From: an uncultured Spirochaetales bacterium
Lineage (GTDB): Bacteria; UBP6; UBA1177
Direction of reading: 5' to 3'
Assembly (NCBI GenBank): GCA_902774115.1
Contig: CACYHH010000004.1
Span: 248,001 to 312,000 of the forward strand
DNA length: 64,000 nucleotides
Program-made: the position numbers and the translations under genes
In this document: in pieces, positions 7,161-46,591 of the stretch
Position numbering within the stretch: position 1 is the first letter of the stretch
Layout: the number at the start of each line of letters is the position of its first letter
Notes under the pieces: model-generated
Told to the model about the DNA's origin: nothing
Database searches by the model: none
Seen by the model: only the letters and a program-made list of their open reading frames with translations

Positions 7161-7289
7161 GTTGTCCTCCAAAAAAAGAATAATGACTTGTAAATTTAAT
7201 TTGTCACTGAATAATGTCAACAGACAAATTTGATTTTTGCACTGCAGATTTTTAAAATTCCGCGTTTTGCTTATTCTCTGCGGGGAATT

Positions 7290-8825
7290 ATGGGATACGC
7301 CGAAATAACTTTGAAACTTCCGACAGATTATTCGGAAAATCTGCTCAGAAAAAGGATCGCGGAAGAGATTACCGACAAAAATTTTTCATTCAAAATCATA
7401 AGACGAAGCCTTGACGCAAGAAACAAGCGCGACATCCACTTTCTGGCAAGGATCGGCGTAACTTCCGAAAATATCTCAGGAAATCCGCCAAAAATACAAA
7501 AGTTGGAAATTCCGGAAAGGCATACTGACAAAAAAGTCGTCGTCACCGGATGCGGTCCTGCAGGAATTTTCGCCGCTCTTATTCTGCAGAAAGCGGGATT
7601 TTCGGTCACGATCATCGAAAAAGGGGCTGAAGTCGCAAAAAGAAAAGAAAAAATTTCCGAATTCGAAAAAACGGGAACTTTCGACTTTTTCGGCGGCTAC
7701 TGCTTCGGAGAAGGAGGTGCAGGAACATTCAGCGACGGCAAGCTGACAAGCAGAACAAAAACCATAAGTCTTGAAAAAGATTTCATTTTTGACACTTTCA
7801 TAAAAGCAGGCGCGCCGGAGGAGATCGCTTACGAAACCTATCCGCATGTGGGAAGCGACAATCTCAAAAAAATCATTCCGGCAATAATTTCAGAGTTCAA
7901 GGAACTCGGCGGCAAAGTCATTTTCGAAAGCGAAGTCACTGAAATTTTCAAAAGCGGCGACAAAATAAAATCGCTCGGAATTTCTGGAAAATCGACCGGA
8001 AAAATCGAAGGAGACTACTTTATTTTTGCGAACGGACACAGTTCGTTCAAACTGTATAAGCTATTGATTTCAAACGGAGTTTTATTCTCGATAAAACCTT
8101 TTGCGATAGGTTTCAGAGTCGAGCATCTTCAGGAAGAACTCAACTTTTCGATGTGGAGGAAACGCTCTCTTCCCGGTGTAAAAGCGGCGGAATATCACCT
8201 CACAGCCGACTGCGATCCGGGCCACGCATTCACTTTCTGCATGTGCCCCGGCGGAAGAGTCGTTCAATCGGCACCGGATGAAATATCCTCAGTCGTAAAC
8301 GGCATGTCAAACTATGCCAGAAACGGCAGATTCGCAAACAGCGCAGTCGTCACACCGTTTTCGCTTGAAGAACTCGCAGGAAAGGAAATCTCAGCGGGAA
8401 CTGCACTGGATCTGCTTGAAAACATGGAGCACAAATTCTATAACTTCAGGAATTCATTCGACATTCCTGCCACTAGAATTTCAGACATGATCCACGGAAG
8501 AAAAACGGCAAAACTGCCTGAATCAAGCTTTTCCTTCGGCCTTATCCCGGCAGATTTGAGTGAATTTTTCCCGCAGACAGTTTTCGAAAGATTGAAAAAA
8601 GGGCTCGAAATCTTCTGCAAAAAACTCGACTGCTTTGAAAACGGAGTCGCAATGGGACTGGAAAGCAAAACTTCAGCTCCAATAAAATGCCTGAGAAATC
8701 AAGACCTTACAGCCGCACCGTTCACAAATCTCTACATCTGCGGCGAAGGAAGCGGATATTCCGGCGGAATAATCTCAAGCGCCGCCGACGGGATAAAAAT
8801 TGCGATGAAGATCGCGTCGATGTAA
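7290..8825 (+). CDS. FAD-dependent dehydrogenase, COG2509 type
   Basis: 511-residue cytoplasmic flavoprotein of the uncharacterised COG2509 group. An N-terminal domain of about 85 residues (KLPTDYSENLLRKRIAEE, then RSLDARNKRDIHF) precedes the dinucleotide-binding fold VVTGCGPAGIFAAL with the acidic strand end IIEKG, then the GEGGAGTFSDGKLTSR block typical of this group, and a C-terminal GEGSGYSGGIISSAADGIK closing the FAD site. The substrate is unknown. ATG at 7290 is preceded by GCGGGGAATT. It stands alone, divergent from the nitroreductase. Confidence 0.88.
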   Translation: MGYAEITLKLPTDYSENLLRKRIAEEITDKNFSFKIIRRSLDARNKRDIHFLARIGVTSENISGNPPKIQKLEIPERHTDKKVVVTGCGPAGIFAALILQKAGFSVTIIEKGAEVAKRKEKISEFEKTGTFDFFGGYCFGEGGAGTFSDGKLTSRTKTISLEKDFIFDTFIKAGAPEEIAYETYPHVGSDNLKKIIPAIISEFKELGGKVIFESEVTEIFKSGDKIKSLGISGKSTGKIEGDYFIFANGHSSFKLYKLLISNGVLFSIKPFAIGFRVEHLQEELNFSMWRKRSLPGVKAAEYHLTADCDPGHAFTFCMCPGGRVVQSAPDEISSVVNGMSNYARNGRFANSAVVTPFSLEELAGKEISAGTALDLLENMEHKFYNFRNSFDIPATRISDMIHGRKTAKLPESSFSFGLIPADLSEFFPQTVFERLKKGLEIFCKKLDCFENGVAMGLESKTSAPIKCLRNQDLTAAPFTNLYICGEGSGYSGGIISSAADGIKIAMKIASM

Positions 8826-8859
8826 CAAATTATTTTAAGATTTCAATAAATTATAGTTA

Positions 8860-8988
8860 TTAGAACCAGTCTTGAATCCGCAAATTCGGAATTTTCTCAA
8901 AATGTTTCGTATTGTGAGTGACAAGAATCATGTTTTCAGCGTTTTTCAGGCTGTATATAATGATGTTTGTATCAATCAAAAAGCGCAT
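8860..8988 (-). pseudogene. vapC: VapC-type PIN toxin, internally deleted
   Basis: The 42-residue frame joins a typical VapC N-terminus (MRFLIDTNIIIYSLK, with the first catalytic Asp at residue 6) directly to a typical VapC C-terminus (ILVTHNTKHFEKIPNLRIQDW). Normal VapC proteins have about 130 residues, so roughly 80-90 residues, including the other PIN acidic residues, are missing. The frame remains open, which suggests a clean in-frame deletion. It is very unlikely to be an active ribonuclease. Its ATG at 8988 overlaps the upstream antitoxin gene by 17 bases, the usual toxin-antitoxin arrangement. Confidence 0.8.
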
Positions 8989-9214
8989 TATTTTCTCCGA
9001 AGCGTTCTGAATTGACGCGGCTCTGCCCGATGTTTTCCAAAATTTCATCCGCGCTCTCGTTTCCATCCCATGATAATTTCAGGAATTTTTGAGCCGGAGT
9101 TTCATCGTCTTCTTTGGAATTCAGTTTTCCGAGCGAAACAATCAGGTTGTAAACAACTGTCTGCTGCTCTTTTGTGAGTGTATCCAGTGCTTTTTCAAAA
9201 ATTTCGTAGCTCAT
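8972..9214 (-). CDS. VapB-like antitoxin, now without a full toxin
   Basis: 80-residue protein with an N-terminal helical stretch (FEKALDTLTKEQQTVVYNLIVSLGK) and an acidic, disordered-looking C-terminal half, as in many antitoxins that wrap around PIN toxins. It is assigned as an antitoxin mainly from position: it overlaps the start of a VapC remnant. GGAGGTGCGAT precedes the ATG at 9214, and a good promoter lies at 9243-9270. I cannot name the antitoxin family. With the toxin degenerate it would be an orphan, possibly acting on another toxin. Confidence 0.65.
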   Translation of the reverse strand: MSYEIFEKALDTLTKEQQTVVYNLIVSLGKLNSKEDDETPAQKFLKLSWDGNESADEILENIGQSRVNSERFGENNALFD

Positions 9215-9242
9215 ATCGCACCTCCATTCAAAAAAACCGTTA

Positions 9243-9270
9243 ATTATATCATAAAATCAAATATTTTCAA
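9243..9270 (-). promoter_or_regulatory. Promoter of the VapB-like antitoxin
   Basis: Reading leftward: -35 TTGAAA (9270-9265), 16-bp spacer, -10 TATAAT (9248-9243). The start of transcription would fall near 9236, some 20 bases before the antitoxin ATG. Confidence 0.7.
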
Positions 9271-9355
9271 CCGGTTTTTATGACAGCAATATGTTCCTCA
9301 CAGAAATTTTTTACCGTTTCAGGCGTTTTTTCAATAGACGTGGGAAAAAGTAAAT

Positions 9356-9388
9356 AAAAAAGGCTCCCCGAAGGGAGCCCGTAAAATC
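9356..9388 (-). terminator. Rho-independent terminator, copy 1 of a 33-bp direct repeat
   Basis: Leftward strand reads a GGCTCCC stem, TTCG loop, GGGAGCC stem, then a run of six T. It lies just past the stop of the leftward cyclase-like gene. The whole 33-bp block recurs exactly, in the same orientation, at 22497-22529 at the other side of the defence island. Confidence 0.85.
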
Positions 9389-9408
9389 ACAAAAAGCTGA
9401 AATACCGC

Positions 9409-10338
9409 TTATTTTTTAGTTTCGAGAGGAAGCAAAAAACTTCTTTTTTTTGAAAAGTTCATTTTTGAGCATTCTTTGACGAACTTATTGATTTCGTCAG
9501 TTTTCTCCAATTCCTTATAGACATTTTCCAATTTATCAATTCTTTCCACTCTTTCGGACAAAACTCTCTCTGCAATCTCATTTTTTTTATGATCAGCATA
9601 AAAGAAGCCATACGGTTTGGTTTTCCAATCAGGGTAATACCATATAATCGGATAATACTGTTCGTTCCATACTCCTTTTAAAATCTCGAATGAAACAATT
9701 TGCAGTTTTTCATCTATGTCACAGTTTTCGGGCTTCGTTAAATGTAAGAAATATGCAAAATCCGCACTTAATACAATTTTGTGATGGAATGCGAACTTAG
9801 CAATACGGAAGCCTATATCCATATCAGGACCAAGGAAATCGACCTGATCTTGATCTTCAACATTTAATTTTACTTTCATATTCTTGTAAAATCTATTTGT
9901 TTTTGGAGCATTAGAAAGATTAAATTTTTTTGATTCTACCGTCCTTGCAGCAGCCATCCAAATGGTTGATTTCACATCAAGTTTTTTAGTTTTCGAAACT
10001 TTTTGAATTGCTTCTGCCACTTTCAGTTGAATAGAATAAACCGTGTCAGGAATCGTGTAAATTACAGAAGGAGAATCGAAATCGCAAATCGAAACATATA
10101 AAAGAATTTCATCTCCTAAATATTTCCAGACCTTAATCTGAGGGATTAAATATTTTAATTCCTTATAAACAGTATCGTAAAAATAAGGAATAACATACGG
10201 CCAATTTGTTTTTTCAGTCTTGAATTTAGTTGATCCAACCAGATCAAACGAAAAAAAGATATATATGTTCTTTTTTTCTATTATTTCTTCCGAACTTTTG
10301 AGGATGTCAGATAATTTTGTATCGAATTGAATGTTCAT
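9409..10338 (-). CDS. Class III nucleotide cyclase-like protein
   Basis: 309 residues, no signal peptide or membrane span. The N-terminal two thirds resemble a class III cyclase homology domain: FFSFDLVGST with the first metal-ligand Asp at residue 32, WKYLGDEILLY with the second at residue 76, and FLGPDMDIGFRIA at 169-180, where the position of the catalytic Asn appears to be Asp174 while the transition-state Arg (Arg178) is kept. The remaining 100 residues are charged and helical. The gene starts three bases after the stop of the ImmA/IrrE peptidase gene, so the two form an operon. Pycsar anti-phage cyclases belong to the same superfamily, but none of their usual effectors (TIR or 2TM with a cyclic-nucleotide domain) is adjacent. 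Nucleotide product and activity are unknown. Confidence 0.65.
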   Translation of the reverse strand: MNIQFDTKLSDILKSSEEIIEKKNIYIFFSFDLVGSTKFKTEKTNWPYVIPYFYDTVYKELKYLIPQIKVWKYLGDEILLYVSICDFDSPSVIYTIPDTVYSIQLKVAEAIQKVSKTKKLDVKSTIWMAAARTVESKKFNLSNAPKTNRFYKNMKVKLNVEDQDQVDFLGPDMDIGFRIAKFAFHHKIVLSADFAYFLHLTKPENCDIDEKLQIVSFEILKGVWNEQYYPIIWYYPDWKTKPYGFFYADHKKNEIAERVLSERVERIDKLENVYKELEKTDEINKFVKECSKMNFSKKRSFLLPLETKK

Positions 10339-10341
10339 TGA

Positions 10342-10872
10342 TTACCAGTCGAAGATGCCAAGCCACTTGCCTCGTGTCAATGCAGCGTCAAAAGAAACAT
10401 TAAAATGTTCAGCTATCAAGCTGATATCAATTTTGTTGTTGTGGCCATTCTCTCTAAGAAAATTCTCATAATCATCTTTAGGCATCAAGAATGCACCTGC
10501 AAAATGATTTGCCTCATATTCTTCCACAGAATATCCTTGCCGATATTTCGGAGAGTCACAATACTCGTTTATACTATCCCATTTTGCGGGGTCTATAATA
10601 TATCCCATGTGGAGAAATAAATGCCCGATTTCGTGAGCGATTGTAAATCCCGAACGCTGTGGAGAATGTTCTTTGTTATAGGAAATTTTAAAAGCATCAC
10701 CAACCTTCTCAATTTTTCCTGATATGGTTGAATCTTCAAAAGATTCTGCTTGCAAATCTCCATTGAGGCTTTTTACAACCTGTTCCATATCTATTGGAGT
10801 CTTAACCTCTAGCTTTACTCTAATATAGTCAGCTAACTCTTCAATTGCTTGATAGCGTTTAGAATAAGTCAT
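10342..10872 (-). CDS. ImmA/IrrE-family metallopeptidase paired with the cyclase
   Basis: 176-residue zinc peptidase of the ImmA/IrrE (DUF955) family. The active-site motif HEIGH is at 80-84 within FTIAHEIGHLFLH, and the downstream third ligand is probably Glu120 in EYEANHFAGAFLMP. Known family members cleave XRE-type or DdrO-type repressors in response to damage or phage signals. No repressor gene is next to it. ATG at 10872 has a strong GGAGGTGAAGC site, and a near-consensus promoter sits at 10912-10939. Three bases separate its stop from the cyclase start. Confidence 0.88.
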   Translation of the reverse strand: MTYSKRYQAIEELADYIRVKLEVKTPIDMEQVVKSLNGDLQAESFEDSTISGKIEKVGDAFKISYNKEHSPQRSGFTIAHEIGHLFLHMGYIIDPAKWDSINEYCDSPKYRQGYSVEEYEANHFAGAFLMPKDDYENFLRENGHNNKIDISLIAEHFNVSFDAALTRGKWLGIFDW

Positions 10873-10911
10873 GCTTCACCTCCAAAATATTTTTACCAAC
10901 GAAAGCACAAT

Positions 10912-10939
10912 ATATTATCACAGAATAAATTTTTGTCAA
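10912..10939 (-). promoter_or_regulatory. Promoter of the peptidase-cyclase operon
   Basis: Reading leftward: -35 TTGACA (10939-10934), 16-bp spacer, -10 TAATAT (10917-10912). It gives the two-gene unit a start independent of the restriction operon upstream. The leader would be about 35 bases. Confidence 0.75.
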
Positions 10940-11016
10940 ATACTACTGTAAAATTTTCTTTCATTTTTTCTTCATACATTAAAAAAATCCTAAATTCCTT
11001 AAAAAATATCCTCACT

Positions 11017-11616
11017 CTAAAAGTCAAATTTTGCTAATTGCAATCCTTGCAATCTAAATCTCAAAGCAGCTTCCGAAACACCATATCGCTTTGTTAAGTT
11101 GCTACAAATAGGCTTCCAAATGCCGAAAGTATAATCATTTTTGACATGTAAAAAATCTTTTATTTTTGCTTTATGCGAATTGCCCAGACATGCGAGAAAC
11201 GCACTTTTCACTGTTTCAGCAGGCATAAGAAGACAGGTGGCAAAGTAATTTGCCTCACGTTCAATAGGGTCTTTTAGATATTTATTTTCGGAAATAGCGT
11301 CTTCCGTGCAAAACAAGTTATTGCTATGTAAATCATGTTGTAAAAAATGATGTCCCAATTCATGCGCGATTGTAAAATTTTTACGGCCTTCATTATCTAT
11401 ATTCTTATTTATCATAATATATCGTGTTCCGTTATTTCCTGCTGTTAAAGCACCAAGAAAGGAATCTTCTGCAGTCGCAACTTCACGAAACTTTATCTGC
11501 ATTGCCGTCATTATTTCTTGAAATGCTTTATACGCTCCACCACGTTTCACGTATTTTGTAAGCACTTCAAAACTGACTGCTTCTACTTCTTCATTTGTCA
11601 TCATCATCCATCGCAT
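11017..11616 (-). CDS. Second ImmA/IrrE-family metallopeptidase, overlaps hsdS
   Basis: About 199 residues; the zinc motif HELGHHFLQH follows FTIA, and EREANYFATCLLMP carries the third ligand. It is clearly related in plan to the 176-residue peptidase next door but is not a close copy. Several ATG codons (11616, 11607, 11604, 11601) could serve as start, and all but the last two lie well inside the hsdS 3' end; the frame overlaps hsdS by up to 26 bases, so translation is coupled to the restriction operon. No repressor is adjacent. A role in controlling or sensing attack on the restriction system is conceivable but only inferred from position. Confidence 0.85.
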   Translation of the reverse strand: MRWMMMTNEEVEAVSFEVLTKYVKRGGAYKAFQEIMTAMQIKFREVATAEDSFLGALTAGNNGTRYIMINKNIDNEGRKNFTIAHELGHHFLQHDLHSNNLFCTEDAISENKYLKDPIEREANYFATCLLMPAETVKSAFLACLGNSHKAKIKDFLHVKNDYTFGIWKPICSNLTKRYGVSEAALRFRLQGLQLAKFDF

Positions 11617-12964
11617 CAAAAACGGCGCGTAATGTTTTCCTGGAAACAGTGCCGCGAGCAGCTAATCCTTGATTTTCTAACCAGAGCTCAAATTTTCGTT
11701 CGTAGTTATCTTTGAAAGGAATAACAACTTCATTCTGTTGTAAATTATCTTCCACCTTCACCTGTCCATTCATCAGCATGGGAAGAAGAAAATCGCGGAG
11801 AGAAGCAAGTTGTTTGTTTTCTTCTAGTGCATTCTGCTTCATGGCAAACATCTTATGGGATTGTTCATCGAATCTATCCAAAATTCCCTTTGGCGGTAAA
11901 ATTGTTTTCAATTCTTGCAGAACAGCAATGCGAATACCTTTGAAGACACTACCTGTTGAGCTTCCTTCGGCTTGCTTGATGAATCTTTCGCTTGTAAAAC
12001 ACATATAAAGGAATGACGATGTCATCTTATCGCTCTTTGGTCTTATGGAAAACACAGACTCATTAATATCCCAATCTTCCGGTTCATCCATAATGATATA
12101 GCATCTACCAAGTGGCGAAATACTCGCAAATAGTATGTCTCCGATTTTGATATCAGATCGCCGATGAACAATTGTTCTAGCTTCTTCATCGATATAATCA
12201 CATGATGTGAAATCAATCGTTCCGTCTTTTGTAAGGTTCTTTACAGTCAAATACTTGATGCTTCCACCCGTGTTTAGCGTGAAGTTGTCTCTCGGATTTA
12301 GTCCAGTATTGATGGATTCAATGCATTCACCAAATGATACTGCTTCCCACCCTTCAGGAATCTCCCTTTTCAGTTCCTCGTTCCAGACCATTTTTCCGCC
12401 GCTGGATTTATACGGTTTGCCGTTTTCATCGGGGAAGTCGAACTGCACGAACCAATAATCATAGAGCAGTTTTGCCATGGATTCTAGTTTAGAGCAAATA
12501 GCGCTATTATTTTCTTTTTTCTTATCTATAGAAGATAACACTTCTGCCACTTGGCATTGTATTGCATAATCAGGCAATTCCAATTCAATATTTGCTAAGT
12601 TCTCTTGATTCAATTTAGGTTGAGCTGAGCCAGTAATATATCCCCTTAAGTCCAACGAAGTAAGGAGGTAATAGATATATTTTAAGCAATATCCAGTTTT
12701 AGTTCCCAATATATGAGCATGATTGTTAACCCAAAACTTGCCTGTCGCCCACGTTGCAATACTTTCTGAGCAAGATTTTAAGTTATTACCATCTTCTGCA
12801 ACCAATATATATTCACCATCAAATATATATCTATCAACATAATCTACTATTCCTTGAGCTCCATAATATGGATAGATTTTGGAAAGACCCTTTCGTTCAG
12901 CAGATGAAAGGGGAATCCTTTTACTATCAAGGATTTCAACACAATTTTTAAGCTTTGTTTTCAT
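11591..12964 (-). CDS. hsdS: Type I restriction enzyme specificity subunit HsdS
   Basis: 457 residues with two target-recognition halves: TRD1 about 1-150 followed by the conserved helix (QVAEVLSSIDKKKENNSAI..LESMAKLLYDYWFVQFDF), TRD2 about 205-370 opening with IPEGWEAVSFGE, then the second helix ending LRDFLLPMLMNGQVKV. It sets the DNA sequence recognised by the HsdRMS complex. After the usual end there is an extra tail of about 55 residues finishing in an acidic DAMDDDDK. The start at 12964 overlaps the hsdM stop by 17 bases. Confidence 0.95.
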   Translation of the reverse strand: MKTKLKNCVEILDSKRIPLSSAERKGLSKIYPYYGAQGIVDYVDRYIFDGEYILVAEDGNNLKSCSESIATWATGKFWVNNHAHILGTKTGYCLKYIYYLLTSLDLRGYITGSAQPKLNQENLANIELELPDYAIQCQVAEVLSSIDKKKENNSAICSKLESMAKLLYDYWFVQFDFPDENGKPYKSSGGKMVWNEELKREIPEGWEAVSFGECIESINTGLNPRDNFTLNTGGSIKYLTVKNLTKDGTIDFTSCDYIDEEARTIVHRRSDIKIGDILFASISPLGRCYIIMDEPEDWDINESVFSIRPKSDKMTSSFLYMCFTSERFIKQAEGSSTGSVFKGIRIAVLQELKTILPPKGILDRFDEQSHKMFAMKQNALEENKQLASLRDFLLPMLMNGQVKVEDNLQQNEVVIPFKDNYERKFELWLENQGLAARGTVSRKTLRAVFDAMDDDDK

Positions 12965-14579
12965 AATTTAGCCCTTCCAACTGTTCCAAAATACTTTTTT
13001 CCAACTCTCGTCCTTTCTGGAATTTTTCAATCAGTTTTGCTTTATAGGCATCCATTTTGGCGTTGAACTCTTCTGGCGTAATATCCACATATTCGATTTT
13101 CACGTCAAAATATTGCCCTGCCGATAAGGAGTAATTCTTTTCTTTGATTTGATCGTAAGTAACCGCGACAGAAAAATCCTCGACTGTCTTTTTGTTTGCA
13201 AAAGTGTTAACTATCAAGTCGATTTCTTCAGGTGTTAAGCGGACTTTTTTATTGTTTCCTTCCTGATACTCTTCGCCGAGTTTCGAAGCATCAATCAGAA
13301 TAACATTATCGGAAGATTTTGAGTTATCGAAGAAAACAACTGAGACATTTGTTCCGGTGTTGGCAAAAACATTGGAAGGCATACTGATAACACCATAAAC
13401 AAGACAGTTTTCAACAATATGCTTAAGGATCTTTCCTTCGACACTGCTCTTGGCGGTTAAAAAGCCTGTAGGCAATACAATCGCCCCTTTGCCATTTGGT
13501 TTCAAAGAATTCAACAAATGTTGAATAAAACAGGTATAAATTGCCATACTTTCTTTTTTCTTAGCTGGCACTTTTGGTACACCTGCCCAAAATCTCGTAG
13601 GCATTGCATCGAGCTGCGCCCTTGTTTCCTCAAAATTAAGTTTAAATGGGGGATTGCAGACTATAAAATCGAACTGTCTCAGCGAGTTTCCATCATCACT
13701 CATGTGATATGGATCAGTCAGCGTGTCACCTTGAACTGCGTGGTCAAGTGAAGAAACAAGTCCGTTCAGAATCAGATTCAGTTTAAGCATTTTATTGCTC
13801 TTTTGCGAGCGGTCTTGAGCAAAAATCGTGCAACGGTCTTCGCCGACCTGATGAGCAAGAGCCATGAGTAGTGTGCCTGTTCCTGCGGACGGATCATAAC
13901 ATTCGATATTGTGCAGATCAGTTCTGTCGCCGACAAGCAGTCGTGCCATAATAACCGCAATCGCATGAGGCGTGTAATACTCTGCATACACATCCCCGCT
14001 GTTTGTGTTGTAATCCTTTATCAGATATTCAAAAATACCGGCAAAAAAGTCATAACTCTCAGCAAAGGCTTCCTCAAAGGAGAAATTCACCAGTTTATCT
14101 ATTAAAGCTCTGGCAAACGGAGCGCGTAGAGCGTCATCATCAACAAAATGTGTCAGTTTTTCAAACAAGGGAATTTTTGTATTTTTTGTTGTTTGTGTCG
14201 AAAAAATATTAATGTTTTTATCGGCAATATCTGTCATTGTGGCATCAAATATCACATCAAAATCGCCTTTTGCCTGTTGATTCCAAAGGAAAGAGATCGT
14301 GTGTTCCGGATTCAGACGAAGTACATCGGGCGAAAGAGAATCCAAAAGGTCAAGCCTTTCATTTTCAGACATTTCTGCATAAGCGATTTCCCATTTTTCC
14401 GCTGCGGCAATCTTTGAACTCTTCTTTTTGATTTCATAGCCGAATTTGTCATTCAGGAATTTATACAGAAAAATTTGCGTGATGACTTTGTATTCATTGC
14501 CGTCATTCCCCATGCCGTAATAATGGCAGACAGCTTTTAAATCATCAATCAATCTGTAAGTTTGCGTTTTAATATCCAT
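12948..14579 (-). CDS. hsdM: Type I restriction-modification DNA methyltransferase HsdM
   Basis: 543-residue N6-adenine methyltransferase. An N-terminal helical domain (HsdM_N, about 1-150) precedes the SAM-binding motif DPSAGTGTLLMA near residue 228 and the catalytic NPPF near residue 309. It modifies host DNA and is needed for HsdR recruitment. The ATG at 14579 lies nine bases after the hsdR stop, preceded by GGAGAAAACG, and the gene overlaps hsdS at its end. Confidence 0.96.
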   Translation of the reverse strand: MDIKTQTYRLIDDLKAVCHYYGMGNDGNEYKVITQIFLYKFLNDKFGYEIKKKSSKIAAAEKWEIAYAEMSENERLDLLDSLSPDVLRLNPEHTISFLWNQQAKGDFDVIFDATMTDIADKNINIFSTQTTKNTKIPLFEKLTHFVDDDALRAPFARALIDKLVNFSFEEAFAESYDFFAGIFEYLIKDYNTNSGDVYAEYYTPHAIAVIMARLLVGDRTDLHNIECYDPSAGTGTLLMALAHQVGEDRCTIFAQDRSQKSNKMLKLNLILNGLVSSLDHAVQGDTLTDPYHMSDDGNSLRQFDFIVCNPPFKLNFEETRAQLDAMPTRFWAGVPKVPAKKKESMAIYTCFIQHLLNSLKPNGKGAIVLPTGFLTAKSSVEGKILKHIVENCLVYGVISMPSNVFANTGTNVSVVFFDNSKSSDNVILIDASKLGEEYQEGNNKKVRLTPEEIDLIVNTFANKKTVEDFSVAVTYDQIKEKNYSLSAGQYFDVKIEYVDITPEEFNAKMDAYKAKLIEKFQKGRELEKSILEQLEGLNYENKA

Positions 14580-14588
14580 CGTTTTCTC

Positions 14589-17500
14589 CTATATTGAGGG
14601 ATAAGTTTCATTGTATTGTGCCAAATATTCCTTTGCAATCCTGCTCTGGATGAACAATCTATCATCTCTTTCAGCAGAAATTCCCAGAACATTTATGCTG
14701 TTTGAGATTTCAGTCATTACAGTTTGCTCGAAATATGCGTCCTTTTTGAGAATATCGTTACGGTCATAAACCTTTTGATCAATCTTTTCCTTGATGTTTG
14801 TCAGTGCGCGGACGATATCTTCATCATATCCTGAAATAATGATCGTTTCTCCTTCATTTTGTCTTTTGATGTTTTCTTCTCTAATACGCTTGTGAACCCT
14901 GGCAAATTTTGCATCATCGTTATAATGCCTTAATAAAGCTGCATTCTTTTTCTGCAACTCAGTAAGTTTTTGGAGAATTTCATCCATAACACGGGAAGAT
15001 TCATTAAACTCATCCATGTTTTTAGGTGTAAAACCGTGTTCATGAAAACGGGCGTAAAAAGCTTCTCTCAGCGTGATATATTCAGGATCTTCGTGATCAA
15101 TATTCTCGGTAAATTTTCTTACCAGTTTTTGCAGTTTTTCATTAAGTTCTGCCCCACCCGATACAATCTTCAACTCTTCATCTTTTAGTTTTTTGAAATT
15201 AAAAGTGATATCCTGCATAGCAGAATTTATCATAATGCGTGTTGCATCGTCGCTCGCAAAAGCCTCACGCTGGTTTACAATATTGATATGACGCTGAACC
15301 TCGGAAATAAGATCCTTGATTTTAGCAATCTCAAAAGTTCTGAAATACGATTTCAACTCATCATCGCCGAATGTCCTGACGATATTGCAGCAGTCACGGA
15401 CATCAATCAACGCTTTTTTTACTTCCAGCAAGACATTTTTGTCCTCTATATTTGAGATTTCCGTGCTGAACTCTTCCGCATTGTTAAGAGGATAATTGAA
15501 GAGTATCTGACGGGCTTTCTGAGTCCGTCGAATCAATTCCTCCGGATCTTCCATGACCTGAGCAACAATATTTACGACATTTTCTCCGCCAACTTCACCA
15601 GGATCGTTGAATTTGCTTAATTCCTCAAGATACGCGGCATTTGTCTCATCAAAATTGCGTTTTATATCTGCGAAGTCAACTATAAAGCCGTACCTGTTAT
15701 CTCCATAAGGCCTATTGACTCTTGTTATTGCCTGAAGCAGAGTGTGATCTTTCAGCTTACGCCCGAAGTAAAGCCGCTTCAGTCTTGGCGCATCAAAACC
15801 GGTAAGCAGCATGTTGTAGACAATTAAAATATCTATTTTCAAATTCTCTTTGAAATCGGTAATAACTTTTTCACGGAATTCCTTGTCATCGCTGTCATAA
15901 AGAATAAGACCCGCTTTAAAACAGCTTCTGTTTGAAGCATTGGCATTCAATTCACCTTGAATTTCGTCGAAATATGCGAACAACCTTCTTGCCTGCTCAC
16001 TTGTTTCGCAGATAACCATGCCACCCAAGGTGTTATCGCCCTGTCTCACGCGGAATTGCTTTAAATCGGTAATAACATATCGAAGCAGTGCTTTAACATA
16101 ATTTTCATGTTCGATGATACACTCTTTTTTTACATCCTTTTTCTGAACAAGATTTTCAAGAGAATCATAGATATCTGAAAGTTTTTCTTTCCACTGGGTT
16201 TCAATATCTTCGCGGATGATTTTCAACGTATATCCGTCTTGGACAGATTTGTCGTAGTAATAAGTGTGCAGATAATTACCGAAAACTCTCCACGACTCTC
16301 TTTCGCTCTTCAAAAGAGGAGTTCCGGTAAGAGCAATCTTGATCGAATTAGGATCTGCATTAAAAAGATTCGCCAGGAAAGAACCTTCAGGCTTATACCC
16401 TCTGTGCGCCTCGTCAACAATAAACACTCTCTGCAAATTTATCGCGTATGGAGGAATGACAACCTTTTCATGACTTTCAGCAAAACGCTGAATATTAACT
16501 ACTGTAATTTCAGCTTGACCAGATTTTCCCTCTTGGGAATTAGAGTTCTCGGGTTTAAATTGGTTCATCAGATCTTCGCGAGAATCAGCTGTTTTGACAA
16601 CTAAACCTCGCGCTTCGAACTCTTCTTTTGCCTGTTTCAAAAGATCAAGACGGTCAACAATAAAATAATATTTTGCGACCTTGTTTACGCTGGAAAAATA
16701 GTCTGTCAGCACATAGGAAAGATGATATGAAAGAGCTGTTTTTCCGCTGCCCTGCGTATGCCAGATAATGCCGGATTTGACTCCTTCAGAGATTTTCTTC
16801 CTGACAACCAGTGCAGCAAAAAATTGCTGGTAACGCATGATATGTTTTTGATCTATACGCTCAATGGTTCCATCTTCACGCTCTTTGTTCTTGTGATAAT
16901 ATGTAATTCCGTATTTAAGCAGGAACAAGAGCCTTTCCGGAGTGCACATGGAAGTCAAAACCCTGTTAGTAGGAGTGTTGGTACCAAGATTGGTCTGATA
17001 TTCAGGTGTTGTATGAATAACCTGATTGTTAAAATCCGACAAAATCCGTTTTTCCGTTTCAGGATCGATCTCTTTGTAAGGAAAATCTCTATTAAATGGA
17101 GCAATATTTTGATTCAGTGGATTTTCTTCTCGGAAACAGTTGAACGAAGTCTTTTTCTTTGCTCCGGTGCAGTAGAAAGCACCCTGAATAGGTACGATTC
17201 CACCGAGAGCATCATATTCCATGTTATTTGAGAAAATCATCAACTGCGTGATGTTGATAAAACGGCGAAATTTCTTATTTGGGAAGCGCTCATTATTCAT
17301 TCGATTCGCTTCTGCCACCATACCGCCTGGATTATTGGGCTTTTTGACCTCAACAAAAACCAGCGGAAGCCCGTTTACAAACAGCGTAATATCCGGTCTG
17401 AAATTATCTTCATCCCGTTTGCAGGTAAATTCAGCTGTGCAGTGAAAAGTGTTTTTCTTAGGATCATCAAAATCAACCAGTTTCACAGGAGATACGGATT

Positions 17501-17774
17501 TAAGTCTTTTGTAAAAACTTTCTCCAATGTCGTCATTGTCCAGTTCCTGTCTGATTGTACGAAGCATTGATTCAGCCTCATCTGCCCTATCAGGATTCAA
17601 TTTGGCAAATTGTTTTTTAAACACTTCAATAAGAATGTTTGTATCAGGATCATAAACAGTTTTCGACTTATCCTCTGTAATTTTTCCGAAGTATTCATAA
17701 CCAATGCGTGTCAAATGGACAAGAGCCGGCATCTGAACTCTTGTCGCTTCATTAAACCCAGATTCTTTCGACAT
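14589..17774 (-). CDS. hsdR: Type I restriction endonuclease/translocase HsdR
   Basis: 1061 residues. The N-terminal PD-ExK nuclease is seen as RPDITLFVNGLPLVFVEVK (Asp and ExK) near residues 125-145. The SF2 motor has Walker A TQGSGKTALS near residue 343 and the DEAH box VDEAHRGYK near 455, then helicase domain 2 (LLTGFDAPRL, QAITRVNRPY). It translocates and cuts unmodified DNA. The ATG at 17774 (MSKESGF) is preferred to an upstream start because AAAGGAGAAACT precedes it. A near-consensus promoter is at 17806-17833. First gene of the hsdR-hsdM-hsdS-peptidase operon. Confidence 0.96.
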   Translation of the reverse strand: MSKESGFNEATRVQMPALVHLTRIGYEYFGKITEDKSKTVYDPDTNILIEVFKKQFAKLNPDRADEAESMLRTIRQELDNDDIGESFYKRLKSVSPVKLVDFDDPKKNTFHCTAEFTCKRDEDNFRPDITLFVNGLPLVFVEVKKPNNPGGMVAEANRMNNERFPNKKFRRFINITQLMIFSNNMEYDALGGIVPIQGAFYCTGAKKKTSFNCFREENPLNQNIAPFNRDFPYKEIDPETEKRILSDFNNQVIHTTPEYQTNLGTNTPTNRVLTSMCTPERLLFLLKYGITYYHKNKEREDGTIERIDQKHIMRYQQFFAALVVRKKISEGVKSGIIWHTQGSGKTALSYHLSYVLTDYFSSVNKVAKYYFIVDRLDLLKQAKEEFEARGLVVKTADSREDLMNQFKPENSNSQEGKSGQAEITVVNIQRFAESHEKVVIPPYAINLQRVFIVDEAHRGYKPEGSFLANLFNADPNSIKIALTGTPLLKSERESWRVFGNYLHTYYYDKSVQDGYTLKIIREDIETQWKEKLSDIYDSLENLVQKKDVKKECIIEHENYVKALLRYVITDLKQFRVRQGDNTLGGMVICETSEQARRLFAYFDEIQGELNANASNRSCFKAGLILYDSDDKEFREKVITDFKENLKIDILIVYNMLLTGFDAPRLKRLYFGRKLKDHTLLQAITRVNRPYGDNRYGFIVDFADIKRNFDETNAAYLEELSKFNDPGEVGGENVVNIVAQVMEDPEELIRRTQKARQILFNYPLNNAEEFSTEISNIEDKNVLLEVKKALIDVRDCCNIVRTFGDDELKSYFRTFEIAKIKDLISEVQRHINIVNQREAFASDDATRIMINSAMQDITFNFKKLKDEELKIVSGGAELNEKLQKLVRKFTENIDHEDPEYITLREAFYARFHEHGFTPKNMDEFNESSRVMDEILQKLTELQKKNAALLRHYNDDAKFARVHKRIREENIKRQNEGETIIISGYDEDIVRALTNIKEKIDQKVYDRNDILKKDAYFEQTVMTEISNSINVLGISAERDDRLFIQSRIAKEYLAQYNETYPSI

Positions 17775-17805
17775 AGTTTCTCCTTTATTCATATGAACCA
17801 AGAGA

Positions 17806-17833
17806 ATAATACGGAAGCGCTCACACGTGTCAA
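17806..17833 (-). promoter_or_regulatory. Promoter of the hsdRMS operon
   Basis: Reading leftward: -35 TTGACA (17833-17828), 16-bp spacer, -10 TATTAT (17811-17806), about 32 bases before the hsdR ATG. Confidence 0.75.
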
Positions 17834-18025
17834 CTATTTGATTTTACTACACATTTTCAAATATCAATTAAACAAACAAATTAAAAAAACTGTGAAAAAA
17901 TTTATTTAAAATCCGACATCGTTCAAGACAAAACAAGGTTTTGTTTAGTTGTTTTTAGATTGGTAATGAAAAAAGAAATTCTGAATTATATCAGACAATA
18001 TTCGTAAATATCCTTTTAAAGCAAG

Positions 18026-18481
18026 TCATTTCTTTTGAGATTCATTCAAAGCTTTCTCTATCGCTACTTGGCGTAAGAAAAACTCACTTTCAATTTTTTC
18101 CTGCAAACTTAATGGATAATAATAACATTTTATACAATCCCATTTGACATTCTTGAGACGGAGTGCCGCAGCGATTTCTTCCAGTAGTTTAAGATACTTA
18201 TCCGCAGGCTGTGGATTTACCTCCTTTGTTTTAAGAGTCTCATTCCAAAAATTAGTGTAAGCCTCTCTAACACCTTTATCTGCATGAAAAATTACATCTA
18301 TAGTATTCAAGACTTTAACATTATCTTCACAAACAATATTATATCTATACGCCATAAGCGTCTCAAAGATTCTTAACTTGCTATCGTATATTTTTGATTT
18401 CCTTTGCCAGCACAAAGTAACTACAGTCGCTAACAATCCTGAAAATAACGCTGAAATTAAAATTGAACCAAGATTTTCCAT
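18026..18481 (-). CDS. DUF6680-like single-pass membrane protein
   Basis: 151 residues. One membrane span near the N-terminus (about residues 5-25, ISALFSGLLATVVTLCW) is followed by a cytoplasmic helical region with LRIFETLMAYRYN, then VLNTIDVIFHADKGVREAYTNFW, which fits the DUF6680 pattern as I remember it. Function unknown; such small membrane proteins occur in accessory and defence regions. The ATG at 18481 is chosen over 18535 because GGGAGAAATTTA precedes it. A possible promoter reads leftward TTGACT (18549-18544) and TACAAA (18528-18523). It lies between hsdR and the divergent NTPase and could be a separate defence gene. Confidence 0.65.
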   Translation of the reverse strand: MENLGSILISALFSGLLATVVTLCWQRKSKIYDSKLRIFETLMAYRYNIVCEDNVKVLNTIDVIFHADKGVREAYTNFWNETLKTKEVNPQPADKYLKLLEEIAAALRLKNVKWDCIKCYYYPLSLQEKIESEFFLRQVAIEKALNESQKK

Positions 18482-46150: not shown

Positions 46151-46591
46151 CTATTTTTTACCCGATTTTTCGGCAAGTTTTGCATTCAGTTCCCTGATGC
46201 GGCCGGTAAGAACCCTGATGACTCCGAGAGCGACTTCGTCACGCTGTTTGAGGATCTCAAGAAAGTCATCGCTTTCCATTTTCAGAACCAGGACATCGTT
46301 CCGCGCGATGATGTCAGCACTTCGCGGCTGGCTGTCGATAAGCGCCATTTCTCCGAATCCGGCGCCTTCTTTCATAACGGCTACGACATTTCCGCCGACA
46401 ACGACTTCGACTTCGCCTTTAACTATCATGAAAAGCTCTTTTCCGAGGTCGCCTTCGTTAACGATATACTGCCCTTTTTCAAAATTTTCCTCTTCGAGAA
46501 GTGCGGCTATATCGGCAAGAACTTCACCGGGGATGTCGTGAAAAAGCTCGATATTTTTGAGTGCAAGCACCCTTTCTACTCGTGTCAGCAT
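46151..46591 (-). CDS. Cyclic nucleotide-binding domain protein
   Basis: 146 residues, a single CNB/Crp-like domain: GEVLADIAALLEEENFEKGQ, then YIVNEGDLGKELFMIVKGEVEV, and the phosphate-binding cassette GFGEMALIDSQPRSADIIA with the Glu and Arg that hold the cyclic phosphate. There is no DNA-binding domain, so it should act by protein contact. It starts eight bases after the ATP/ADP-carrier-like gene; in other bacteria such domains can be fused to these carriers, which suggests it gates the transporter. Confidence 0.88.
   Translation of the reverse strand: MLTRVERVLALKNIELFHDIPGEVLADIAALLEEENFEKGQYIVNEGDLGKELFMIVKGEVEVVVGGNVVAVMKEGAGFGEMALIDSQPRSADIIARNDVLVLKMESDDFLEILKQRDEVALGVIRVLTGRIRELNAKLAEKSGKK

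Follow-up and report, generated by a model that had tools for sequence, protein, structure and literature searches.

A conserved and mobile gene pair encoding a minimal M78 peptidase and a protein with a predicted class III cyclase fold

Introduction

To our knowledge, IrrE-type proteolysis and cyclic mononucleotide signalling are known only apart. Among the closest described systems on the nucleotide side is Pycsar, in which operons of a cyclase and an effector are the rule and the base-contact residues of the cyclase PycC vary between clades, according to the accessible text of PMC11224242. On the protease side, the accessible part of the work on PprI assigns residues 177–277 to a GAF-like domain that is required for activation by single-stranded DNA (ssDNA) and dispensable for basal cleavage (PMC10904395), and the ICEBs1 repressor is described as being controlled by ImmA in the accessible text of Makarova 2009 (PMC2701414). 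The same text lists phiC2 and LE1 among the phages in which COG2856 operons occur, reports the pairing of COG2856 with Xre, RelE and PIN, and proposes that COG2856 is associated with toxin–antitoxin systems. A toxin–antitoxin screen in Geobacillus linked Xre–COG2856, as a hypothesis, to a diadenylate cyclase encoded elsewhere (PMC6929052, accessible text); this is not the pair of M78 peptidase and class III cyclase considered here. No description of an operon of an IrrE-type protease and a cyclase was found in the accessible text of the open-access literature.

Here, we analyse such a gene pair in a 64,000-nucleotide stretch of DNA from an uncultured Spirochaetales bacterium (hereafter the window, meaning the whole stretch). 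The original prediction, made from this DNA, had described two genes three bases apart under their own promoter inside a defence island, the first encoding an HEIGH zinc peptidase and the second a protein with class III cyclase marks (Asp32, Asp76 and Arg178, with Asp174 for the usual Asn), and had compared them with Pycsar.

Results

The layout given by the original prediction held in each respect (Table 1). Inspection of the open reading frames confirmed both genes, with 3 nt separating the peptidase stop from the cyclase ATG, and the promoter and the adjacent type I restriction-modification (R-M) operon were recovered. A promoter scan found seven promoter-like sites where 6.6 were expected from shuffles, and the promoter match by itself is thus no better than chance; among the seven, only the site before the pair has an extended −10. 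The promoter call therefore rests on conservation in the sister genome and not on the scan. From promoter to terminator, the unit forms a block of about 1.6 kb in the window's genus, and the DNA upstream of the block differs between the window and its sister. A second, separate M78 gene, absent from the original prediction, is a neighbour that probably belongs to the R-M operon; its best PADLOC matches are capP and RmrA. On the Mycolicibacterium plasmid (locus L007), too, the pair is preceded by an additional M78 gene.

Table 1 Coordinates of the gene pair, its surroundings and related features. Positions are those of the window unless another locus is named.
Feature	Position	Strand	Remarks
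M78 peptidase gene	10342–10872	−	176 aa; Pfam PF06114
Class III cyclase-like gene	9409–10338	−	309 aa; fold from AF2 model
Promoter	10939–10912	−	TTGACA-16-TAATAT, extended −10; kept in sister genome
Intrinsic terminator	9380–9361	−	GC hairpin with 8-bp stem, TTCG loop, T-run
Promoter-to-terminator block	9345–10969	−	87.8% identical (blastn) to sister copy
Sister copy of block	L070 7341–8966		87.8% identical
Second M78 peptidase gene	11017–11619	−	overlaps hsdS by 29 bp
Type I R-M operon	11591–17801	−	PADLOC, NCBIfam
hsdS	11591–12964	−	
hsdM	12948–14579	−	
hsdR	14589–17801	−	
Variable island	8826–22494		between FAD-protein gene (7230–8825) and OAD_beta gene (22549–24441)
Terminator-region repeat, about 60 bp	9352–9411	−	one island edge
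Related repeat	22493–22551	−	other island edge, same orientation
Small antitoxin-like gene	8972–9214		by eye; no Pfam match
DUF6680 gene	18026–18535		beside R-M operon
SMEK-domain protein with WD40 repeats	18741–22430		closely similar repeats, 123-bp units
cNMP-binding domain (PF00027)	46244–46489	−	about 35 kb from pair
Antitoxin-like gene, then PIN-domain-like start	L087 (G021), about 12840–13400		by eye; behind the pair's promoter region
Cyclase phiC2p41	L008 3824–5410		Nudix-like C-terminal domain, Nudix box degenerate by eye
Cyclase of L012	L012 3917–5359		Nudix-like C-terminal domain, Nudix box degenerate by eye

In the window and in its sister genome alike, the pair follows a type I R-M operon on the 3′ side of the same OAD_beta gene. 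The HsdR proteins of these two pair-bearing genomes have different best PADLOC families (PDLC03044 and PDLC03049), which indicates that the R-M systems of the two sister species differ while the pair stays. Site contents, compared in G024, G018, G016, G021, G019 and G026, also vary across the genus, in keeping with the predicted defence island. G024 and G018 have an empty site, in which the flanking genes are separated by a terminator and nothing else; in G016 the site is occupied by a Bro-N gene and a further type I system; in G021 only the promoter region of the pair is left, now before a small antitoxin-like gene; G019 and G026 have other genes there, and in G015 and G027 the flanking gene found no match. 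Seen by species, the hotspot loci L087, L088, L089, L092, L094 and L095 are empty or contain restriction systems or other cargo. In both pair-bearing genomes, repeats of about 60 bp stand at the edges of the island; the same hairpin is found in empty sites, and these edge repeats may therefore be mere copies of the terminator.

Several other genes lie in this hotspot. The small antitoxin-like gene of the window lies within the island; the one in G021 is followed by a PIN-domain-like start. The DUF6680 gene has a relative in the G016 version of the hotspot. In the gene for the SMEK-domain protein, the repeat coding runs on in other frames past a stop at 21680, so that the gene looks broken or variable in its array.

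By sequence, the predicted cyclase is a distant member of its class. It scores 12.8 bits against Pfam PF00211, under the curated cut-off of 21.9, has no PADLOC match at E ≤ 1 and nothing relevant in NCBIfam, and matched no PDB chain with either phmmer or a 27-row profile. It does match PHROG 18024 (3.8e-47) and PHROG 6174 (5.6e-20), which contain the same proteins as the cyclase family and are both listed with unknown function. An AF2 model made from the 27-row family alignment (pLDDT 79.6, pTM 0.82) gave 177 Foldseek matches in the PDB at E ≤ 0.001, supporting the fold at 5.8e-9, and the 50 listed are all class III cyclases. Using VIA-align, the model was superimposed on CyaB (3r5g) with a Z of 16.6 (186 of 195 residues aligned, rmsd 2.9) and on Rv1900c (1ybu) with a Z of 16.1. 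The modelled protein thus has the class III catalytic fold. This comparison of predicted structures is stronger evidence than hhalign against 21 ordinary PF00211 domains (taken from 30 loci, near-copies left out), which placed the motifs in register at E 0.0006 with a probability of only 28.7.

The catalytic domain occupies about residues 20–240 and is followed by a variable C-terminal tail, 79 to 257 residues long in the 27 rows, in which no shared cleavage motif was apparent by eye in the family alignment. Two tails contain a Nudix-like domain (Table 1). Scanned alone, that of L012 matches Pfam NUDIX with 25.2 bits (cut-off 21.1); for the phiC2p41 protein, Pfam yields no Nudix hit up to an E of 1, and both tails match the same PADLOC candidate model, PDC-S07.

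The two metal-binding Asp residues and the Arg of class III cyclases are present, and D32, D76, Asp174 and R178 are invariant in both family alignments (25/25 and 27/27 rows), in agreement with the marks originally read from the single sequence. Further invariants are W46, W71, GFR and YP; E77 is otherwise invariant and is lost in L068. K72 and D167, conserved in 24/25 and 26/27 rows, occupy what we take to be the positions of the adenine-selecting Lys and Asp of mammalian adenylyl cyclase, an assignment with which the hhalign register agrees (a weak alignment, probability 28.7). No row has the transition-state Asn of the class; Asp174 stands in its place, and ordinary PF00211 domains keep this Asn in 20 of 21 cases (L105 and L100 read by eye). 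The viral loci were picked by the conserved peptides GPxxDxGFR and WKxxGDE, which biases the invariance of those residues there. Because most viral members came from a pattern that contains Asp174, the fair count for this residue is 16/16, namely the members found without that motif (the window, L002–L009, L061, L063–L066, L067 and L068, with L061 and L063 being close kin of L004). Since Asp replaces the transition-state Asn in all 16, activity could be altered or lost. We nonetheless consider it likely that the window cyclase is catalytically active, and propose an adenine-type cyclic nucleotide as its product.

The upstream gene encodes the HEIGH zinc peptidase that had been predicted. It scores 62.6 bits against Pfam M78 (cut-off 22), has its HExxH motif, HEIGH, at residues 80–84 and the third ligand at Glu118, and its AF2 model (pLDDT 89) has the M78 fold. 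Z values against IrrE/PprI and CapP structures range from 12.8 to 16.9, the best structural match being CapP (7t5t; Z 16.9, rmsd 3.3, 153 residues aligned), with PprI 8sln at Z 13.6. The structural alignments cover residues 6–202 of the CapP chain and 22–213 of the PprI chain, and the window peptidase aligns with both only through the helix-turn-helix (HTH). As modelled, it consists of a peptidase domain and C-terminal HTH-like helices, without the GAF-like domain, and it shows no recognisable domain for sensing ssDNA or nucleotides. The partner proteases are alike in this respect: in an alignment of 21 of them (A6; L055, L066, L003, L004 and L006–L009 left out), all 21 retain HExxH and the third Glu, beyond which their chains run for another 49–61 residues.

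These features bear on which protein acts upon which. The cyclase could be the sensor and the M78 protease the effector, turned on by the cyclase or its product and cutting host or phage proteins in the way that other nucleotide-driven immune proteases cut proteins when switched on. Such an arrangement would suit the protease-first order found in 23/26 clusters (see below) and the cyclase-plus-effector operons that the accessible text of PMC11224242 gives as the rule in Pycsar. However, the protease has no recognisable ligand-binding domain, the 21 aligned proteases end just past the HTH, beyond which the best structural matches cover nothing, and solo cyclases exist, so that we regard a sensing cyclase with an effector protease as rather unlikely.

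Relatives are scattered across unrelated hosts. Searches with tblastn found them on plasmids of Leptospira, Sphingomonas, Tistrella and Mycolicibacterium, in the C. difficile phages phiC2 and phiCD27 and in the Leptospira phage LE1, and pattern scans yielded 45 loci on viral contigs in one case and 28 in the other, with 22 common to both. Adjacency was counted over 64 loci, which form 26 cyclase clusters at 70% identity (27 at 90%, 22 at 50%), after removal of L001 and L011 (the window again), L010 and L070 (L002 again), L057, L059, L060 and L058 (the same stretches as L067, L068 and L069) and matches weaker than 1e-20. In 23 of the 26 clusters, among which clustering at 70% leaves deeper relatedness, the cyclase gene is immediately preceded by an M78 gene in the same orientation. 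By script the count was 21/26 (22/27 at 90%, 17/22 at 50%), to which L066 (overlap beyond the script limit) and L067 (split cyclase) were added by eye; L053 and L054 fall into a single cluster, of which only L054 is cut at a contig start. The exceptions are L005 from Sphingomonas, L013, where the cyclase sits beside an integrase and is apparently cut off, and L068, which is divergent and solo. The two genes overlap by up to 28 nt or are separated by up to 34 nt in the 25 distinct cyclases, out of 28, that were scored using the cyclase start nearest the protease stop. M78 matches are rare in the genomes concerned, with three in that of the window, two in the sister and one to three per mobile record (22 records).

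The partner proteins also share their history. Their tree distances correlate with r 0.85 (n = 22), a value reached by none of 10,000 permutations (highest 0.42); the permutation test ignores phylogeny and therefore shows co-inheritance, not physical contact. That the protease–cyclase pair is a conserved two-gene module across unrelated hosts is accordingly well supported. Chance neighbours or decayed genes without joint function might account for the sub-threshold PF00211 score and the replaced Asn, but hardly for adjacency in 23/26 clusters, congruent trees and conserved catalytic columns, which together make this explanation extremely improbable.

The family is uncommon. In a broad sample, 4/193 genomes matched (that of the window, its sister, G107 and G132), and 3/193 contain family members; the match in G132 (L069, E 1e-5) represents a class III cyclase of the ordinary kind, outside the family. 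Within the phylum of the window 2/28 genomes matched, its own and the sister, and within that of G107 2/52, namely G107 and the solo G243. In G107 an intact protease lies beside a frameshifted cyclase, the frameshift being possibly a sequencing error. One Leptospira contig has two divergent copies of the pair (L015 and L061). The solo cyclases L005 and L068 keep the catalytic residues, and the protease is therefore not strictly needed.

Two small, adjacent or overlapping genes in near-fixed order, patchily distributed, mobile and present twice on that Leptospira contig, recall a toxin–antitoxin-like addiction pair, in which a nucleotide-consuming or signalling cyclase would be the toxin checked by the protease, or the reverse; the proposed toxin–antitoxin association of COG2856, with phiC2 and LE1 named, points the same way (PMC2701414, accessible text). 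This reading is weakened by the occurrence of each gene without a working partner, as in L005 and L068 and, if its frameshift is real, in G107, since a lone toxin should not survive. We judge an addiction pair to be distinctly unlikely.

The module is self-contained and mobile, being cargo of prophages, plasmids and a chromosomal defence island. A tyrosine integrase lies at most 3.1 kb from the pair (in L013, from the lone cyclase) in 8 of 24 mobile records; any tyrosine integrase (PF00589) is present in 11/24 and none in 13/24, and in L046 and L056 the integrase is more than 36 kb away on a linear contig. The phiC2 pair has the integrase on one side and the endolysin on the other, with an AbiF-like gene nearby, and this region is proposed to be a lysogenic conversion module in the accessible text of a review (PMC4009436). 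The phiC2 protein phiC2p41 belongs to the cyclase family (PHROG 6174; alignment with the window protein) and appears to be the gene called tcdB-like in that text.

Given such carriers, the pair might control lysogeny, with the protease as an ImmA-like anti-repressor and the cyclase as an induction regulator of the carrier element. Integrases nearby in 8/24 records, an immunity-region protein annotation in LE1 and the control of the ICEBs1 repressor by ImmA (PMC2701414, accessible text) are in line with this. LE1, however, has its own, separate CI-annotated gene, the partner is not an HTH repressor, and the copies of the window and its sister sit, and are kept, in a chromosomal R-M island; lysogeny control thus appears improbable.

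No PF00027 receptor domain was found in any of 22 mobile records (18 virus contigs, which may be fragments, and 4 plasmid or phage records, LE1 being in both groups). The genomes of the window and its sister have five PF00027 matches each, none beside the pair; one of the five lies in the window itself (Table 1). As this domain is missing from 22/22 mobile records and the cyclase is unmatched in PADLOC, a classical Pycsar system is rejected and the comparison with Pycsar made in the original prediction is weak.

Discussion

We propose that the pair is an infection- or damage-triggered two-gene switch in which the protease acts on the cyclase and the cyclase is the output, a reading to which we give a probability of roughly 0.4. 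The pair would sense infection or DNA damage, and the protease would then act on its operon partner, by analogy with relatives whose known substrate is the partner repressor. It may cut or unlock the cyclase at the variable arm or the C-terminal tail, and the freed cyclase would make an adenine-type cyclic nucleotide. This nucleotide could act via the host's own cAMP-type receptors, or its synthesis could drain nucleotide, and the infected cell would stop growing. The direction of control, from protease to cyclase rather than the reverse, is a tentative choice. We lean towards a role in defence or inter-element conflict, and infer anti-phage activity from genomic context.

A more elaborate form of the proposed switch is possible, if somewhat doubtful when all of its parts are taken together: a sensorless IrrE-type protease and an Asp-for-Asn class III cyclase would form a mutual lock and a phage-borne immune switch of a new type, the cyclase would be a separate-protein stand-in for the GAF-like sensor, proteolysis and cyclic-nucleotide synthesis would gate each other without a dedicated receptor, and temperate phages and plasmids would use the switch against competing elements.

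Of the original interpretation, the conserved pair and the class III fold, for each of which a refuting outcome had been named, stand, and the likeness to Pycsar is weak. The two directions of signalling that it offered, a nucleotide switching the protease or the protease releasing the cyclase, are both hypotheses. As a conserved module the pair is stronger than had been claimed, while its mechanism is a hypothesis. The analysis gives a structure-based identity to PHROG 18024 and 6174, both of unknown function, and to genes of LE1, phiC2 and Leptospira plasmids, and what began as a guess about a single locus becomes a two-gene system that is defined, testable and present in distant hosts. Should the pair be an immune switch, it would join IrrE-type proteolysis with cyclic mononucleotide signalling. 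It also provides a simple case in which to study how a class III cyclase functions when Asp replaces the Asn and a dedicated receptor is lacking.

With Pycsar the module shares the two-gene unit, the class III cyclase and the defence context. It differs in its partner, a minimal M78 protease instead of a cNMP-binding effector such as PycTIR, and in K72/D167, which resemble the adenine-type pair of mammalian adenylyl cyclase. Neither of the PycC structures 7R65 and 6YII appears in the list of 50 structural matches, which is simply an absence from that list, and no CBASS cyclase model is among the PADLOC matches listed for eight island proteins. Type II toxin–antitoxin systems are similar in having two small adjacent genes in fixed order on mobile elements. 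The catalytic domain resembles CyaB, Rv1900c and CyaC in its predicted fold over residues 20–240, the two metal Asp, the Lys/Asp pair, the Arg and a C-terminal LKG element, and is set apart from them by Asp for Asn, a score below the Pfam threshold and the extra invariants W46, W71, GFR and YP.

On the protease side, CapP is the closest structure, but its chain of 291 aa has a further C-terminal part and its partner CapH is a transcription factor, whereas the partner here is a cyclase. PprI/IrrE–DdrO and ImmA–ImmR share the M78 fold, HExxH...E and the HTH-like C-terminal helices; the window protease differs from PprI in lacking the GAF-like domain, and the pair differs from ImmA–ImmR, IrrE–DdrO and CapP–CapH in that the adjacent partner has a predicted class III cyclase fold instead of being an HTH repressor. 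The arrangement thus resembles an IrrE-type protease in which a separate cyclase has taken over from the sensor part.
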